NCBI GenBank assembly: GCA_026399835.1
Contig: JAPLQE010000011.1
Span: forward strand, 1 to 64,000
DNA: 64,000 bases
Reading direction: 5' to 3'
DNA from: Burkholderiales bacterium
Lineage (GTDB): Bacteria > Pseudomonadota > Gammaproteobacteria > Burkholderiales > Burkholderiaceae_E
The notes under the pieces are model-generated. The model saw nothing but the letters and a program-made list of their open reading frames with translations. It was not told the origin of the DNA and did not search any database. The position numbers and the translations under genes are program-made. Below are positions 55,116-63,345 of this stretch, piece after piece (position 1 is the first letter of the stretch; each line of letters starts with the position of its first letter).

Positions 55116-56305
55116 GCCGGGCGCCGCTGGCCGACGGCCGGCCCGCGCGGATCGGCGTCGTCGGCACCGGCTTCATCTCGCGCAGCCTGGTGCGGGCGCT
55201 GCAGGGGCCGCGCTGCGCCGACCTCGAGGTGGTGCGCGTGCTCACGCGACGCGATCCGCACACCGTCGATCATCCCGCGGCCGATCGGCTGACCCGCTCG
55301 ATCGATGCGCTGGTCGAGGGCTGCGACCTCGTCTTCGAGTGCAGCGGCGATCCCTTCCACGCCACCGCGGTGGTGGCGCGCGCCTTCGAGGCTGGCCGCC
55401 CCGTGGTCACGCTCGATGCCGAGTTCCATGTCACCACCGGGCCGCACTTCGTCGGCCGCGGGCTGGTCACCGAGGCCGAGGGCGACCAGCCGGGCGTGCT
55501 GGCCGCCCTGCGCGAGCGGGTGCTGGACATGGGGTTCGAGCCGCTGGTCTACGGCAACATGAAAGGGTTCCTGAACCTCGATCCGACGCCGCACGAGATG
55601 GCGCACTGGGCGCGGCTGCAGGGCCTGAGCCTCGCGCAGACCGTGGCCGCCACCGACGGTACCAAGATCCAGATCGAGCAGGCGCTGGTGGCCAACGCGT
55701 TCGGCGCCACCGTGTCGTGTCGCGGCATGGAAGGCTGGGCGCGCGACGACACCGAGCGTGCCGCGCAGGACCTCGCCCGCCTCGCCGCCGTGCAGGTCGG
55801 CGCGCCGATCGCCGACTTCCTGGTCTCGCGTACCCAGGTGCCCGGCGTGTTCATCGCCGGCACGCACGATCCGGCCCAGGCCGAGGCGCTGCGCTACTAC
55901 AAGCTCGGCGAGGGCCCGTACTACGTGGTGACCAACCCCCACCACCTGGTCACGCTGGAGGCGGTGCGCACCGTGCGCCGGGTGCTGCGCGGCGAGGGCG
56001 CGCTGATCCACAACACCGCGCGCCCGACGGTGTCGGTGGCCGCGGTGGCCAAGCGCAGGCTCCTGCCCGGCACGCGGATCGAGCGCGGCATCGGCGGCTT
56101 CGAGGTGCGCGGCGAGGCGGTGCGCGTCGACGAGGCGCCCGGCCACGTGCCGATCGGCGTGCTGCAGCCGGCGGTGCTGCGCCGGACCGTCGAGGCCGGT
56201 GAGGTGCTGCAGTGGGACGATGTCGAACTGCCGGATTCGGCGGTGGTCGACATCGTCCGCGCGATCTATGCGCCCGCGCTCACCACGAGCGCGGCAGTGC
56301 CTTGA
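55112..56305 (+). CDS. NAD(P)-dependent oxidoreductase with SAF domain
   Basis: The 397-residue protein starts at TTG 55112 overlapping the methyltransferase stop. The N-terminal Rossmann domain (RIGVVGTGFISRSLVRAL) is of the homoserine-dehydrogenase/DRG3 type. Later phrases are YGNMKGFLNLDPTPHEM and ATDGTKIQIEQALVANAFGA. A C-terminal SAF domain (residues 315-385: RRLLPGTRIERGIGGFEVRG, AGEVLQWDDVELP) resembles sialic-acid-synthase-type SAF. Such proteins occur in sugar biosynthesis loci; the reaction is unproven. Confidence 0.85.
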   Translation: MSRAPLADGRPARIGVVGTGFISRSLVRALQGPRCADLEVVRVLTRRDPHTVDHPAADRLTRSIDALVEGCDLVFECSGDPFHATAVVARAFEAGRPVVTLDAEFHVTTGPHFVGRGLVTEAEGDQPGVLAALRERVLDMGFEPLVYGNMKGFLNLDPTPHEMAHWARLQGLSLAQTVAATDGTKIQIEQALVANAFGATVSCRGMEGWARDDTERAAQDLARLAAVQVGAPIADFLVSRTQVPGVFIAGTHDPAQAEALRYYKLGEGPYYVVTNPHHLVTLEAVRTVRRVLRGEGALIHNTARPTVSVAAVAKRRLLPGTRIERGIGGFEVRGEAVRVDEAPGHVPIGVLQPAVLRRTVEAGEVLQWDDVELPDSAVVDIVRAIYAPALTTSAAVP

Positions 56306-56957
56306 GCAGCACCAGGCGCCGGTCCTCCACGGCCACGTAGCCGCCCCCCGTCAGGTCCTTGAGCAGCCGGCTCACCATCTCGCGCGAGCAGCCGATCTCG
56401 CTGGCGAGCATCGCGTGCGTGGTGCGCTCCGGCACCCGGCGCCGCCCGGTGCCGTCGTCGACGGCGAGTGCCTCGAGCCGGCGCACCAGCCGCCCGTAGA
56501 CGTCGAGCGTGGCCATGCCGCGCGCCGACTCCGTGGCCAGCCGCGCGCGGCGGATCACCCGCGAGATCAGCAGCAGCGCCAGGTCCGGGTCGCGGGCGAT
56601 CTGCTCGCGCAGCGTCGCGCGGGTGATCACCGAGCAGGTGGCGGGCTCGACCGTGATCACGCTCGCCGAGCGCGGCCCGCCGTCGAGCGCCATCTCGCCC
56701 ACGCATTCGCCGGGGCCGTGGACGTTGAAGGTCACCTCCCGGTCGCGGGCGCCGCCGCCACCGCCACCGGAGGAGAACACCCGCAGCCGGCCGGTCAATA
56801 CGACGAACAGGGTATCGCCGGTGTCGCCTTCGTCGATGACGATGGTGCCTCGGCGGTAGCGGCGCACGACCCCGCGCTCGGCGAGGGCGCGCAGGGAGGG
56901 GTCGGTGACGGCGGCGAAGGGATCGGTGCCGGACTGCGCGGCGGCGGATCTAGGCAT
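56280..56957 (-). CDS. Crp/Fnr-family transcriptional regulator
   Basis: The 225-residue regulator has a cyclic-nucleotide-binding domain (YRRGTIVIDEGDTGDTLFVVLTGRLRVF, GECVGEMALDGGPRSASVIT) with a six-glycine loop near residue 70 and a winged helix (HAMLASEIGCSREMVSRLLKDLTGGGYV) whose recognition helix resembles that of CRP. No N-terminal FNR cysteines. It overlaps the oxidoreductase gene end by 26 bp and is divergent from a nucleotidyl cyclase gene, which fits cAMP sensing. Confidence 0.9.
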   Translation of the reverse strand: MPRSAAAQSGTDPFAAVTDPSLRALAERGVVRRYRRGTIVIDEGDTGDTLFVVLTGRLRVFSSGGGGGGARDREVTFNVHGPGECVGEMALDGGPRSASVITVEPATCSVITRATLREQIARDPDLALLLISRVIRRARLATESARGMATLDVYGRLVRRLEALAVDDGTGRRRVPERTTHAMLASEIGCSREMVSRLLKDLTGGGYVAVEDRRLVLLKALPRSW

Positions 56958-57119: not shown

Positions 57120-58922
57120 ATGGAACGGTCCCCGCCTCCCGCCATGCTCGACGAGATCTTCGCCCCTTGGACGGGCCGCCGGCGCGGGACCATCGTGGTG
57201 GTCGACGTCGTCGAATCGGTGCGGCTCATCGAGCAGGACGAGGCGGGTGCGGTCGCGCGCTGGCAGGCCCTGGCCGAGGCCATCGTGCACCGCGTGCTGC
57301 CCGGTACGGGCGGGCGTCTCGTCAAGAGCCTCGGTGACGGGATGATGCTCGACTTCCCCGACACCCGGCGCGCGGTCGCCGCGGCCTTCGCGATCCAGCA
57401 GGCCTGCTCCGAAGTGAACGAGGGCGTCGCCGATCCGCGCCGCAGGATGTGGGTGCGGATCGGCGCCCATGTCGGCGAGCATCTCGTCGACGCGCTGGAC
57501 GTGTATGGCCACAGCGTCAACCTCGCCGCGCGCCTGACCACGGTCGCCGGTCCCGGCGAGATCGTCGTCAGCGCCGAGGTCCGTGACCAGGTCACCGATA
57601 CGCTCGACGCCCGGATCGAGGACCTGGGGGACTGCTGGCTCAAGCACGTCTCCGAGCCGGTGCGGGTGTACCGGCTCGGGCCGCCCGGGCCCGAGCCGAC
57701 CGTGGAGCCCGCTGCCGAGGCGCACGCGCTGCGTCCAACCATCGCGGTGATCCCGTTCGCGGCCCGGGCCTGCCACGCGGACGAGGCGGTGCTCGGCGAG
57801 ATCATCGCCGACGAGGTGATCGGCGCGCTCTCGCGCTCGACCGACGTCGACGTGATCTCGCGGCTCACCACCACCGCGCTCCGGGGGCGTGAGACATCGC
57901 CGGCCCTGCTCGCCGAGCGGCTGGGCGCGACCTATGTGCTGTACGGGCACTACCGCGTGTCGGGCGCGCGGGTGATCGTCACCGCCGAGCTGTGCCACGC
58001 ACGGAGCGGGAAGGTCGTCTGGAGCGACACGCTGCGCGCGAGCACCGCCTCGGTGATCTGGGGCGAAGCGCCGCTGTTCGAGCATCTGGTCGACGCGGTG
58101 AGGAGCGCGCTGGTCGCCACGGCGCTGCAGCGCGTGCAGACGCAGGCCCTGCCGACGCTCGAGAGCTTCAACCTGCTGATGGCCGCGATCGCGCTGATGC
58201 ACCGGCAGTCGCCGAGCGACTACGAGCGGGCGCGGCGGGCGCTCGAACTGGTGATCGACCGCGCGCCCCGCCAGGCCGTCCCGCGGGCGTGGCTCGCGAA
58301 GTGGCACGTGCTGCGGCTGATGCAGGGCTGGACATACGACCCGGCCGAGGACGGTCAGGCGGCGCTCGACGCGACCCGGCATGCGCTCGATCTCGACCCC
58401 GAGTGCTCGCTCGCGCTCGCGATCGACGGACTCGTGCAGACGCACTTCACCAAGCGGCTCGACGTCGCACGGCAGCGCTTCGAGGGCGCGCTCGCGGCGA
58501 ACCCGAACGACTCGCTCGCGTGGCTGCTCAAGGGGACGCTGCACGCGTTCCAGGGCGAGGGCCGCGACGCGCTGCACGACTCGCGCCGCGCGCTCAAGCT
58601 CTCGCCGCTGGATCCGCTGAAGTACTACTACGACTCGCTGGCGGCGAGCGCCGCGGTCGCGGGTGGCGAGCCGGTCCGTGCGATCGAGCTCGCGCAGCGC
58701 TCGCTGAGGGCCAACCGCCGTCACACGTCGACGCTACGGGCGCTCGCGATCGCGCAGTGGCAGGTCGAGCGCCACGACGACGCCCGTACGACGATCGCGG
58801 AGCTCAGACGGCTCGAGCCGGAGCTCACCGTGTCAAAGTGGCGTGTCCGATCACCGAGCGCCGGATTTTCGATCGGCGACGACTGGGCGAGAACGCTGAC
58901 CGAGGCAGGTCTGCCCCCCTGA
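57120..58922 (+). CDS. Class III nucleotidyl cyclase with TolB-like and TPR domains
   Basis: The 600-residue protein has a cyclase homology domain (residues 20-185) with metal-binding Asp29 (VVVDVVESVRL) and Asp73 (SLGDGMMLDF) and the transition-state stabilising pattern YGHSVNLAARL. A TolB-N-like segment follows (TIAVIPFAARACHADEAVLGEIIADEVIGALSR, 210-350). The C-terminal 220 residues are TPR-like helices (YERARRALELVIDRAPRQAVPRAWLAKW...). No signal or membrane segment. It should make cAMP for the divergent Crp-type regulator. Confidence 0.9.
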   Translation: MERSPPPAMLDEIFAPWTGRRRGTIVVVDVVESVRLIEQDEAGAVARWQALAEAIVHRVLPGTGGRLVKSLGDGMMLDFPDTRRAVAAAFAIQQACSEVNEGVADPRRRMWVRIGAHVGEHLVDALDVYGHSVNLAARLTTVAGPGEIVVSAEVRDQVTDTLDARIEDLGDCWLKHVSEPVRVYRLGPPGPEPTVEPAAEAHALRPTIAVIPFAARACHADEAVLGEIIADEVIGALSRSTDVDVISRLTTTALRGRETSPALLAERLGATYVLYGHYRVSGARVIVTAELCHARSGKVVWSDTLRASTASVIWGEAPLFEHLVDAVRSALVATALQRVQTQALPTLESFNLLMAAIALMHRQSPSDYERARRALELVIDRAPRQAVPRAWLAKWHVLRLMQGWTYDPAEDGQAALDATRHALDLDPECSLALAIDGLVQTHFTKRLDVARQRFEGALAANPNDSLAWLLKGTLHAFQGEGRDALHDSRRALKLSPLDPLKYYYDSLAASAAVAGGEPVRAIELAQRSLRANRRHTSTLRALAIAQWQVERHDDARTTIAELRRLEPELTVSKWRVRSPSAGFSIGDDWARTLTEAGLPP

Positions 58923-58993
58923 AGCGGATCCCCCGATCCTTCCCCACCACGAGACGGGGGCGGTGGCGCCCTCGCGTCCAAGGAGAACGAGCA

Positions 58994-60190
58994 GTGAGCG
59001 GCATCTCGGGCATCAGCGGCATCAGCGGCATCAGCGGCATCTCCGGCATCTCGGGGATCAGCGGCATCAGCGGCATTTCAGGCATTTCAGGCATCTCGGG
59101 CATCAGCGGCATCTCCGGATCGGGCCTGGGTGGCGCGCCGCTCGACGCCCTGATCCGACACCGTGAGGCGATCGCCGGGCCGTGGCTGGGTGTCACCTCC
59201 GGCGCGAACGAGCTGCTGCCCGACAGGGCCGAGCACCTCAGGCGCAGCCCGCCGGACATCCGTGCCTGGGCGCTCGACCAGGAGGTGCTGTCGAGCCTGC
59301 GGGTCACCTACGACGGATCGGGCGCCGCCGGGAATCCTGCGCGCCACGCATGCGTGGTGTGGCACGCCGAGGTCTCCCCGCCGTCGACCGACGCCACCGT
59401 CGCGAAGCTGGTCGAGATCGTCCGGCCGCCGTTCGCCACGTTCCAGGCGCAGCTCAAGCGGGTCGAGGAGTACGCCGATCTGCGCGAGGATCGGGCGCTC
59501 GAGATCGCCTCGCAGGTCGGCCCGCAGGCCGCCTACTGGGAGACGGTGCTGAACCTGCGCCCGTGGCAGCATCCGCGCACCCTCGAGCTCGCGCTGCTGA
59601 CGCTGCGCATCGCCAATGCCGTGGCGCAACGCACCAAGCTCATCCTCGCGTGCCGCCGTCCGGTCGAGCTGTCGGCCCAGATCCAGCCGATGCTGCCGAC
59701 GCCGGGCCACGGCGCGCTGCCGAGCGGCCATGCGAACGAGGCGTTCGCGGTCGCGACCGTGCTCGGTGCGCTGGCGTCGAACGCGGGCGCGAACGCCTCG
59801 TCGGCGAACCCCGGTGCCGCGATGATGCCGATGCTCTACCGGCAGGCCGCCCGGATCGCGACCAACCGGACGATCGCGGGACTGCATTTCCCGGTCGACC
59901 ATGCGGCCGGCCAGATGCTCGGCCTGTCGATCGCCGAGTACCTGCTCGCGCGCTGCGGCGCGGCGCCCGGCAACGGCCTCGCCACCTGGACCTTCGACGG
60001 CACGGCCTACCCGGCCGATCTCGAGCACGAGTACGACCGGCAGTTCGACGCCACGCTGAGCACGCGCCTCGCGCCCGGTGCCGCCGGCCTGCCCTCGTAC
60101 GTGAAGGGCGAGGCCCTCGGCGTCGCCGTGCCGCCCTCGCCGCTGCTGCAGTGGCTGTGGGCCGCGGCCAAGGCCGAATGGACCGCCTGA
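58994..60190 (+). CDS. PAP2/vanadium-haloperoxidase-like protein with SGI-repeat N-terminus
   Basis: The 398-residue protein starts at GTG 58994 (ribosome site AAGGAGAA). Residues 2-40 are thirteen Ser-Gly-Ile units. The rest is a vanadium-haloperoxidase-like PAP2 domain: K215-LILAC-RRP, PSGH at 243-246 and R292-TIAGLHFPVD with H298, the full vanadate/phosphate-binding set. The enzyme is therefore an acid phosphatase or haloperoxidase. No normal signal peptide is seen. It is followed 10 bp later by an S8 peptidase gene. Confidence 0.88.
   Translation: MSGISGISGISGISGISGISGISGISGISGISGISGISGISGSGLGGAPLDALIRHREAIAGPWLGVTSGANELLPDRAEHLRRSPPDIRAWALDQEVLSSLRVTYDGSGAAGNPARHACVVWHAEVSPPSTDATVAKLVEIVRPPFATFQAQLKRVEEYADLREDRALEIASQVGPQAAYWETVLNLRPWQHPRTLELALLTLRIANAVAQRTKLILACRRPVELSAQIQPMLPTPGHGALPSGHANEAFAVATVLGALASNAGANASSANPGAAMMPMLYRQAARIATNRTIAGLHFPVDHAAGQMLGLSIAEYLLARCGAAPGNGLATWTFDGTAYPADLEHEYDRQFDATLSTRLAPGAAGLPSYVKGEALGVAVPPSPLLQWLWAAAKAEWTA
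58997..59113 (+). repeat. (Ser-Gly-Ile)13 coding repeat
   Basis: A 9-bp coding unit is repeated 13 times. Serine is AGC, TCG, TCC or TCA; Gly is GGC or GGG; Ile is ATC or ATT. The synonymous variety shows the repeat is not a fresh slippage product and suggests that the tripeptide itself is maintained. Confidence 0.95.
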
Positions 60191-60200
60191 GGAGACCGTC

Positions 60201-62453
60201 ATGGCGCTCGACTGGCGCAACGTCACCGATGCCGCGGGCGACCCGAGGCGCGACGCCTACGGCCTGCCGCCGATCGCGGCGCGCATCGACCCGAACCTGA
60301 ACCGGGCCGTCCTGACCGGCTTCGCGGACTTTGAGGACGGGGCTGCGAAGCGCACCTGGTTCTCGATGCTGATCGAGCTCAAGCATGTGACCGCGAAGCA
60401 GTTCGCGCGCGGCGACTGGCAGGCGCACGCGGCCGTGCCCGCCGGCTGGCGCGGCTGGATGAAGATCCCGGCGTGGTATGCGGATCCGCCGGCCGGCCTC
60501 GACGGCACCTACTGGCTGACGGCTCGGGTCACCGACGAGTTCTTCCGGCAACTGCACGACCCCGACTCGGCGCTGTCGCGCTGCGTGCTGCGTTTCGGCT
60601 TCGGCTGGTCGCCCGATCGCGGCGACCTGCTCTGCGACGGCGATCCGGCGCCGGACCCCACGCCCGCCGCGCGGCGCTGGAAGCCGGGCGATCCCGTGAT
60701 CGTCGGCGTGATCGACGACGGCATCGCCTTCGCGCACCGGCGTTTCCGCCGTGCCGACGGCAGTTCGCGGGTCGAGCACTTCTGGGACCAGCGCGAGCGC
60801 CAGGGTGACGGGCCGATCGATGCCTCGAGCTGGAACAAGGCGGCGCCGGTTCCGTTCGGCGTCGAACTCGATGCGAGCGCCCCCGACGGCATCGACGCGC
60901 GCCTGCGTCGGGCGTCGAGCGCGGCGCGCGGTGCGGCCGGTCCGATCGCGGCCGGACTGCTCGACGAGGACCGGCTCTATCGCGACGCCGGGCAGCGCGA
61001 GGTCGGACGCCGGGCGCGGCACGGCACGCACGTGATGGACGTCGCCTGCGGGGCCGCGCCGGACGACGCGGCCGCGCCGCCGATCGTCGCGGTCCAGCTG
61101 CCGCGGCCGGTCGCGCTCGACACCACTGGCCACCTGCTGGCGCCGCACGTGATGGAGGGGCTGCGCTTCATCCTGGATCGGGCCGACCGGATGGGTGGCG
61201 CCGCCCGCGCGGAGGGACCTGTCGACCCCGATGCCACCGACCCCCGCGTGCCGGTCGTCGTGAACCTGAGCTACGGCACGATCGCCGGTCCGCAGGATGG
61301 CTCGTCGATGCTCGAGCAGGCCATGGACGAGCTGATCGCCCAGCGCACCGCGGCCGGCCATCCCTTCGCCATCGTGATGGGCGCGGGCAACCACCTGCTC
61401 GCCCGGGCGCATGCGACGGTGAGCCTGGGACTGGGCGAAGAGGCGATCCTGGAGTGGCGCGTGCCGGCCGATCACCCCGGCTCGGCCTTCATGGAGATCT
61501 GGCTGCCGATGCCGAGCCTCGACGTCCCGCAGCCGGAGATCGAGGTCTCGCTGCTGGCGCCGATCGAGGCCACGAACGCGGCGCAGGCCGTCAGGCGCGG
61601 CCGCGTGTGGGAGTGCGTCGAGACCTCGCCGCGTCCCGAGGGCTCGCCGGGCGACGCGGTGATCGCGACGGTCGACTACCGTAGCGCCGGGCTCCACATG
61701 AATCCGGAGCTCATGTCGTTCTGGTGCGATCGCGACATGGTGCTGCTGTCGGTCTCGCCGACGCGTCGCTCGGGCGGGCTGCGTTCGAGCGCGCCGTCGG
61801 GCACCTGGCGGGTGCTCGTGCGCAATGTCGGACGTCCGTGCACGGTCGACGCCTGGATCCAGCGCAACGACGCACCGTTCGGCTTCACGCGGCGCGGCGT
61901 GCCGTCCCGCTTCGAGGATCCGGCGTACGCGGTGCACGACCGTGTCGGCCGTCCGGTCGAGACCGATCCAGCGGTGCCGCTCGGCCCGGTGCGCCGGCGC
62001 AGCACGCTGAACGCGCTCGCGACAGGCCACCGGACGCTGGTGATCGGTGCCGCCCGGCGCAATGCCGCGCGGGTGGGCGATCGCCCCGCGTCCTATGCGA
62101 GCGCGGGCCCCGGGTTCGCGATGCAGCCGGCCGGCGCGCCGGACCGATGGGGACCGGACGCCGCTGCGGTCGCGGACGACGGCGCGGTGCATCGCGGCGT
62201 GATCGGTGCCGGCACGCGCAGCGCGGGCGTGGTCGCCCTGAACGGCAGCAGCGTCGCGGCGCCGCTGGCCACCCGCGCGGTCGCGCAGACGATGTCGAAG
62301 GGCTGGCCCGCCGATCGGCCCGCGCTCGCCGGTCTCGTCGAGGTCGAAGCGCAGGCGCTCGCCGACCTGCAGCGCGTCGGGCGCGGCGTCATCGACCTGC
62401 CGGTGCCCGGACGCGTCGAGCGGTTCGGGCGCTTCAGGCCGGAAAAGCCCTGA
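60201..62453 (+). CDS. S8-family subtilisin-like peptidase
   Basis: The 750-residue serine protease has catalytic D172 (GVIDDGIAFAHRRF), H274 (ARHGTHVMDVACG), oxyanion Asn in IVMGAGNHLL and S684 (LNGSSVAAPLATR; GSS-V-A replaces the usual GTS-M-A). A 160-residue N-terminal domain precedes the catalytic part and a roughly 200-residue beta-rich insert separates Asn and Ser. No signal peptide or membrane helix. GAGGAG precedes ATG 60201. It is the 3' partner of the SGI-PAP2 gene. Confidence 0.9.
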   Translation: MALDWRNVTDAAGDPRRDAYGLPPIAARIDPNLNRAVLTGFADFEDGAAKRTWFSMLIELKHVTAKQFARGDWQAHAAVPAGWRGWMKIPAWYADPPAGLDGTYWLTARVTDEFFRQLHDPDSALSRCVLRFGFGWSPDRGDLLCDGDPAPDPTPAARRWKPGDPVIVGVIDDGIAFAHRRFRRADGSSRVEHFWDQRERQGDGPIDASSWNKAAPVPFGVELDASAPDGIDARLRRASSAARGAAGPIAAGLLDEDRLYRDAGQREVGRRARHGTHVMDVACGAAPDDAAAPPIVAVQLPRPVALDTTGHLLAPHVMEGLRFILDRADRMGGAARAEGPVDPDATDPRVPVVVNLSYGTIAGPQDGSSMLEQAMDELIAQRTAAGHPFAIVMGAGNHLLARAHATVSLGLGEEAILEWRVPADHPGSAFMEIWLPMPSLDVPQPEIEVSLLAPIEATNAAQAVRRGRVWECVETSPRPEGSPGDAVIATVDYRSAGLHMNPELMSFWCDRDMVLLSVSPTRRSGGLRSSAPSGTWRVLVRNVGRPCTVDAWIQRNDAPFGFTRRGVPSRFEDPAYAVHDRVGRPVETDPAVPLGPVRRRSTLNALATGHRTLVIGAARRNAARVGDRPASYASAGPGFAMQPAGAPDRWGPDAAAVADDGAVHRGVIGAGTRSAGVVALNGSSVAAPLATRAVAQTMSKGWPADRPALAGLVEVEAQALADLQRVGRGVIDLPVPGRVERFGRFRPEKP

Positions 62454-62463
62454 CGCCTGCGCG

Positions 62464-63345
62464 TCAGGCTGCCGGCGGCCAGGCGAACTGCTTCGCGCAC
62501 AGCGCGGCCAGCGCGCTGCGGTCCATCGGCGGCGCGGCGCGCACGCAGCTGCTGCGCTTCGGGCGCGCCGGAAGGCTGTCGCGGGACGGCAGCGTGCTCG
62601 GCGGCGCGACCGTGCGCAGGGGCCCGTCGAGGCGTCGCGACGTGCCGCCTTCCGGCGGCGAGCCGTGGGGGCGCGGCGCGAGCGATAGCGCTGCGTGCCC
62701 GGGCATCGGCGGCAGGTGCAGCGCCTCCACCACCAGCTCCCTCATGCTGTGCGTGCCGGTCTTCTCCAGCAGCGACTTGATCTGGCTGCGCACCGTGCCC
62801 TCGCTCGAGCCGCGGCGCGCGGCGATCTGCGGCGGGCGGTCGCCGAGCACGAGCTGCTGCATCACGTCGGTCTCGCCCTCGGTGAGCCGGCGCTCGCGGG
62901 CGTAGGCGCGCAGCGCGGGCCAATGCTGGCGCTCGCCGGTCTGCAGCGTGGCCAGCAGCACCGCGCTGCCGTCGGCCTCGCGGCGCCAGCGCACCAGCGC
63001 CAGCTTCGTGCCGGGCACGCCGCCGCCCAGGCAGAGCATCCGCGGCCGGTCGTCGGCCACCTCGGCGAGCGCACGCAGGAACGCCCGCTGCTGCTGGGGG
63101 CCGTGGAGCGTGAGCCGGTCCTCGGTGAGGCCGAGCACGTCGTTCGCGCCCAGCGCGACGCGCGCGGGCCGGTTGGCGTAGCGCACGCGGCCGTCGGTCT
63201 CGAGCAGCATCACGCCGAAGTCGAGCGCGTCGACGAGCTGGTGCAGCAGCGCCGGCGGGATCTCGGCGTCAAGCCCGGCCAGAGGGTCGGGCCGGGGGGC
63301 GGGGAGCGGATCGGAAAGCGAATCGGGGCGGGTCGAACGGTCCAT
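62464..63345 (-). CDS. PAS-like/LuxR-type transcriptional regulator
   Basis: The 293-residue regulator has a PAS-like sensor (about 30-130: LVDALDFGVMLLETDGRVRYANRPAR) and a LuxR/GerE helix-turn-helix (ERRLTEGETDVMQQLVLGDRPPQIAARRGSSEGTVRSQIKSLLEKTG, 158-205). An unusual 80-residue Pro/Arg/Ser-rich tail follows the HTH, which is normally C-terminal. It is convergent with the S8 peptidase gene (10 bp gap) and may respond to a small ligand or redox cue. Confidence 0.88.
   Translation of the reverse strand: MDRSTRPDSLSDPLPAPRPDPLAGLDAEIPPALLHQLVDALDFGVMLLETDGRVRYANRPARVALGANDVLGLTEDRLTLHGPQQQRAFLRALAEVADDRPRMLCLGGGVPGTKLALVRWRREADGSAVLLATLQTGERQHWPALRAYARERRLTEGETDVMQQLVLGDRPPQIAARRGSSEGTVRSQIKSLLEKTGTHSMRELVVEALHLPPMPGHAALSLAPRPHGSPPEGGTSRRLDGPLRTVAPPSTLPSRDSLPARPKRSSCVRAAPPMDRSALAALCAKQFAWPPAA

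Follow-up and report, generated by a model that had tools for sequence, protein, structure and literature searches.

A tandem tripeptide array on a bacterial PAP2 phosphatase varies in step with the TPR domain of a co-encoded nucleotide cyclase

The (Ser-Gly-Ile)13 array that opens a PAP2 protein in the window, the whole 64,000-nucleotide stretch of Burkholderiales DNA analysed here, is probably a disordered, polyvalent docking tail. Judged from sequence comparison, it would be read by the TPR groove of a nucleotide cyclase protein from the same operon and would tie the phosphatase to the cyclase. Arrays of this kind are nearly universal among relatives, the choice of unit is free, selection acts at the protein level, the operon is conserved, and the unit covaries with the TPR domain. 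The word and the binding groove of the cyclase protein change together, so that the array looks like a coded docking tail. From these patterns we infer direct binding, its stoichiometry, an effect on cyclase or phosphatase, and a role for the protease of the operon. The features referred to below are as follows.

57120-58922, forward strand: class III nucleotide cyclase–TolB-like–TPR protein (600 aa; PF00211 at residues 24-175, several TPR families)
58146-58919, forward strand: TPR domain of the cyclase protein (matches to TPR families), the proposed array reader
58431-58433, forward strand: codon of Leu438, position 9 of helix A in TPR3, the top unit-associated position (association and tree co-change)
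58728-58763, forward strand: helix A positions 2-13 of TPR6 (Ser537 to Gln548), with period and Microvirga associations
58980-58985, forward strand: Shine-Dalgarno-like AAGGAG in the sequence, 8 nt 5' of the GTG
58994-60190, forward strand: array-PAP2 protein gene (398 aa)
58997-59113, forward strand: (Ser-Gly-Ile)13 array (TRF, translation, codon count)
59591-59935, forward strand: PAP2 domain with the full catalytic signature (PF01569, invariant residues, acid phosphatase fold)
60201-62453, forward strand: cytoplasmic-looking Csp-like S8 serine protease, third operon gene (750 aa; PF00082)
56280-56957, reverse strand: CRP/FNR regulator gene, divergent from the cyclase gene; its product has a cNMP-binding domain (PF00027, PF13545; accessory)

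The forward translation of 58994-60190 reads V/M(SGI)13-SGSGLGG-PAP2-stop, with a GTG start at 58994. All 39 array residues are exact and follow the start codon directly, as the initial annotation had stated. TRF calls the DNA array at 58997-59118, and its top scores fall at periods 36 and 45, meaning that the DNA copies are imperfect. Serine is encoded by AGC seven times and by TCN six times, glycine by GGC or GGG and isoleucine by ATC or ATT. Since the AGY and TCN serine families lie more than one synonymous step apart, the uniformity of the array is held at the protein level. Structure prediction with AlphaFold2 gives residues 1-49 as disordered (pLDDT below 50) and the PAP2 domain as confidently folded. 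No obvious signal peptide was seen by eye in the cyclase protein, the PAP2 protein or the S8 protease. Three PAP2 proteins of the same genome from outside the array family carry no array, and no further SGI arrays were found in its likely coding frames. Three arrays of 9-nt period lie in unrelated genes of the same genome (RecB-like, AAA-type and helicase-like; L002, L003 and L004), in different frames.

The array leads into a catalytically complete PAP2 domain, which bears out the earlier reading of the sequence. The domain clears the PF01569 cut-off of 27.2 bits with a score of 39.1, and all 67 homologs compared retain K215, R222, S244, G245, H246, R292, H298 and D302; it looks catalytically active. 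The proposal that the enzyme is vanadium-haloperoxidase-like fared worse. Foldseek against the PDB places class A acid phosphatases first (7f17, 1iw8; E 8e-5). Haloperoxidases trail them by a wide margin, with E-values near 0.65 or worse (iodoperoxidase 4usz, E 0.65), so the label is without specific support. With phmmer, too, acid phosphatases come top and vanadium haloperoxidases are absent from the list. The class A enzymes have the same fold and the KX6RP-PSGH-[SN]RX5HX3D signature. The array protein differs from them in lacking a signal peptide (judged by eye) and carrying the array in its place, in its extra N- and C-terminal regions, and in its operon with a cyclase-TPR protein and a protease.

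The gene encoded next is an S8 protease, as first annotated. Its residues D172, H274 and N397 are present in 66 of 66 homologs and S684 in 65 of 66, the exception being an alignment gap; by sequence, catalytic residues are thus conserved in both phosphatase and protease. Foldseek gives CspB and CspA as the closest folds (E 4e-22). The operon enzyme has the subtilase triad in common with these germination subtilases; it differs from them in sitting in a Gram-negative operon, with no spores, and in being replaceable by a G1 peptidase. Identity with TPPII, and tripeptidyl-peptidase trimming of the array, were considered and rejected, as phmmer and Foldseek both return Csp proteases and array periods of 2 and 4 exist. 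The first gene encodes the cyclase protein, whose TolB-like region was named from weak matches and from its position.

A GTDB genome scan yielded at least 529 relatives, of which 80 were kept, and whole-genome sampling with operon extraction enlarged the set to 154 loci, a few genomes being counted twice. Almost all of the 80 loci keep the order cyclase-TolB-TPR, array-PAP2, S8. It is broken at contig ends and where a lineage has another regulator as first gene, for example a winged-helix protein in Phaeobacter; a few lineages have the TolB-TPR gene swapped out or relocated. At L093 and other Rhodobacteraceae and Bradyrhizobium loci the first gene can be a winged-helix gene or an opposite-strand TPR gene, with no cyclase, so the output domain seems exchangeable. 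Some distant members encode a different S8 protease, others a G1/A4 glutamic peptidase (PF01828, E 3e-23). The G1/A4 enzyme stands in place of S8 at L129, L130, L163, L164 and L170, and Asn occurs in the unit of each of the five linked arrays (AGN, TGN, TGN, TSN and NTG). No fourth operon gene is generally conserved across the 80 loci.

Searching the starts of related PAP2 proteins for arrays, as the initial annotation had suggested, gave a clear N-terminal tandem array in 148 of 154 loci. Every intact N-terminus among the 80 loci begins with one, that of L063 being an imperfect six-residue repeat and that of L033 partly masked. Two of the six loci without a clear array are cut by the contig end; the others are L063, L171, which has a GL array further out, and L248 and L251, whose operons have only a degenerate AHRT/AHGD tail. 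PAP2 proteins outside the array family lack arrays, and several distant ones start with what look by eye like signal-peptide sequences. The arrays are thus present in nearly every same-operon homolog with an intact N-terminus, far beyond chance.

The word itself is far less constant and differs between almost all lineages. There are 73 distinct units, with a period of 3 in 126 arrays, 4 in 20, 2 in one and 6 in one. They include GGA, GGV, GGL, SSY, SAY, SGE, SGD, TAM, DGM, QQT, AGR, DAR, AEN and AN, as well as SGI, NGI, SSD and SGGV. The closest relatives within the family carry (SGI)10, (NGI)7, (GAV)11-12 and (GGS)n. Sister species with 97% identity have 13 and 10 SGI copies, and relatives with 80-87% identity in the PAP2 domain can carry different units. 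Eight genomes have two systems, and the two words differ in all eight; this fits insulation but would also be expected of divergent paralogs.

The neighbouring genes differ in how far the unit follows them. Once PAP2 similarity is controlled, unit similarity and S8 are not associated (partial r -0.04 to -0.07). This result, and the replacement of S8 by unrelated peptidases in some lineages, tell against the suggestion that the array serves as a contact site for that protease. With the cyclase protein the unit is associated, and in the full set most strongly with its TPR part (partial r 0.48, p 0.0005). For the 3-mers alone the global matrix test gives p=0.19 for the TPR part and p=0.001 for the cyclase domain, and we therefore do not rely on this test. 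Among close relatives with the same unit, mean TPR identity exceeds that of the cyclase domain by 0.06; where the units differ, it falls short by 0.10 (within-clade permutation p=0.0006). The Polaromonas clade supplies much of the different-unit contrast. Its loci L033 and L076 have 96% identity in S8 and 97% in the cyclase domain, and only 60% in the TPR part; their units are GGL, in a frame read beside the masked stretch, and GGY. Loci L057 and L073, both with SGI, have 91% TPR identity. One pair, SSY and SAL, runs opposite to the trend.

Within the TPR domain, whose repeats were numbered by hand, one position stands out. Among the 1332 columns of the three proteins, the strongest association with the unit is that of position 9 of helix A in TPR3, a concave position (p=3.7e-12). 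It is Phe in 51 of 51 proteins with GGX units, in 15 of 46 with one-Gly units and in 0 of 7 with 3-mers that have no Gly; here it is Leu438, which goes with SGI. On a PAP2 plus S8 tree, with the cyclase protein left out, this column shares 9 of 11 switches between GGX and non-GGX units; the runner-up shares 5. It is the sole outlier of 1249 columns, and the 988 columns with a similar amount of change mostly share 0-2 switches. Post hoc, Gly before a small residue (GGX, GAF, GSL) goes with Phe at this position, and a side chain there (SGI, NGI, TGL, AGV) mostly goes with Leu, Val, Met or Ile.

Array period points to the same protein. Six columns share all three switches between periods 4 and 3, and all six lie within the cyclase protein. 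Those of the six with the fewest other changes are the concave positions 2 (Pro) and 13 (Glu) of TPR6, which mark period-4 arrays. In Microvirga, GGV arrays go with Ile and GGI arrays with Val at position 9 of TPR6. Concave TPR positions as a class are no more discriminating than the rest (p=0.25). A motif at PAP2 residues ~84-90 (59243-59263), RWEPWVRA in many GGX proteins, is also tied to unit class. This region, after the array, may be a second contact.

In the mechanism we propose, the TPR groove of the co-encoded cyclase-TolB-TPR protein would recognise the repeated word, and the array tail would tether the PAP2 phosphatase to the cyclase. With about 4-16 identical sites, one tail could bind two or more cyclase chains at once, or allow the cyclase to slide along it. 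The repeat would stay uniform because every unit must fit the same groove. The word could drift freely provided that the groove follows, which would give an orthogonal code for each lineage or paralog. The protease, nearly always the third gene, probably cuts the tail or its partner, so that the assembly would be released or reset. Class III cyclases act as dimers, and tail-driven clustering would therefore be a natural switch. Such recognition is physically feasible, since designed repeat proteins bind tripeptide repeats with one unit per repeat (PMC10115654). A bolder version is plausible, if somewhat less likely than not: a natural repeat-reading code in which the TPR superhelix would bind the word in register, orthogonally in each lineage or paralog. 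The tails would then be species or system addresses through which phosphatase and protease gate cyclic-nucleotide signalling.

The array could instead be a multi-copy substrate or peptide precursor, cut at each unit by the operon protease to activate the phosphatase or to free short peptides sensed by the TPR protein, a cytoplasmic analogue of Kex2-processed repeat precursors or RRNPP peptide receptors. The third gene does almost always encode a protease, drawn from interchangeable unrelated families (Csp-like S8, other S8 and G1/A4), and the S8 enzyme has a Csp fold, that of proteases that cut N-terminal propeptides. Uniform copies and lineage-specific words resemble multi-copy precursors, and a peptide sensor would also be compatible with the covariation of unit and TPR domain. 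All five G1-linked arrays contain Asn units, but these cases may represent a single lineage. Against a precursor, unit similarity has no residual link to S8, neither an exporter nor any other fourth gene is conserved, GGA, GAA and similar words would be poor, non-specific signals, and the array is joined to an enzyme whose catalytic residues are conserved. We consider this reading unlikely.

The docking tail also has to be weighed against roles in which the array needs no reader. In one, it would form a helix or ladder (polyglycine II, collagen-like, silk GGX or an amyloid-like stack) that joins phosphatase molecules. Period 3 is dominant, many units are GGX, and there are weak collagen-type matches, with PF01391 below its cut-off. 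SGI does place Gly at every third residue, but SSY, SSD, QQT, TAM and SGGV break that rule, and a collagen or silk structure was rejected on account of the Gly-free units. Gly-free units (SSY, SSD, QQT, TAM, DAR), charged units, periods 2 and 4 and the predicted disorder all weigh against self-assembly, which also leaves the covariation with the neighbour's TPR domain unexplained; we give it very little credence. The charged words SGE, SGD, DAR, AGR and AEN and the predicted disorder of the SGI array likewise make a polymerising segment, as first suggested, unlikely as a general role. They also tell against the beta-stacking in an earlier proposal of a beta-stacking tether; the tether itself comes close to the docking tail.

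Predicted disorder would equally suit a linker for solubility or protection from degradation, with no specific partner, and the array occupies the place of the signal peptide in secreted relatives. Such a linker requires neither perfect copies nor covariation with a TPR domain, and it seems to us similarly improbable.

Selection on the protein repeat is visible in its codons. Between adjacent units in perfect arrays, 76% of synonymous sites differ, compared with 2% of nonsynonymous sites, although picking such arrays by amino-acid identity biases the nonsynonymous value and leaves the synonymous value unaffected. When the region is widened to stray copies, the figures are 75% and 12%. The window's (SGI)13 array is less diverged between units than most. 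With units uniform in amino acids and synonymous codons saturated, selection acts on the protein repeat, and the protein-level retention noted in the first reading of the array holds. Neighbouring units share identical codons 605 times, against 692 ± 17.5 in shuffles of the same arrays and 819 predicted from the codon usage of the gene, statistics drawn from related and hence non-independent sequences. DNA-level repetition thus appears to be selected against inside a selected protein repeat, an outcome we regard as notable. A functionless microsatellite made by slippage would account for the 13 and 10 SGI units of sister species and for other 9-nt arrays in the genome, but it is scarcely credible given saturated synonymous change with almost no amino-acid change between units, diversified neighbouring codons, arrays in nearly all homologs and none in the genome's other PAP2 proteins.

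Several known systems resemble parts of the operon. RRNPP/TPR receptors (Rap, NprR, PlcR, AimR) use a TPR domain to read a short, lineage-specific peptide word. In the operon the TPR domain covaries with the word, but neither a free peptide nor export is seen. The word is instead carried as a tandem array on an enzyme, and the output module, a cyclase or winged helix, sits behind a TolB-like domain. Another parallel is the pairing of a repeat protein with tandem tripeptides in designed superhelical-matching proteins (PMC10115654). They are artificial, with one repeat per unit, whereas the operon is natural, its TPRs are non-identical, and one-to-one matching is hypothetical. The cyclase weakly matches the PycC profile of Pycsar (E 5e-6), but there is no Pycsar effector match, the other genes are unmatched and the TPR domain is fused to the cyclase. 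An anti-phage system was rejected, as PADLOC gave only weak PycC matches, viral contigs contained only distant PAP2 proteins and PHROGs matched the array only to collagen-like tail proteins.

We found no published account of the operon or array in the literature searched, which covered few subscription journals, and a three-gene system linking cyclic-nucleotide synthesis, a phosphatase and a protease seems undescribed. We know of no described natural parallel for strong selection on the regularity of a repeat combined with freedom in its wording. The operon makes repeat-repeat recognition and its co-evolution accessible to study, with natural codes that number in the dozens and one identified specificity position that can be swapped, and array/TPR pairs could supply orthogonal peptide tags and readers.

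The system is patchy in distribution, occurring in 49 of 401 sampled genomes of one family within the order. A CRP/FNR gene lies near 17 of the 80 operons, either upstream or downstream. In the window, a PAS-LuxR regulator gene at 62464-63345 on the reverse strand is convergent with the S8 gene and without sign of operon membership. At L071, the cyclase and S8 frames of a Hydrogenophaga-like operon are both split, and its array is of the 3-mer type although its clade has 4-mers, possibly through decay of the operon or sequencing error.
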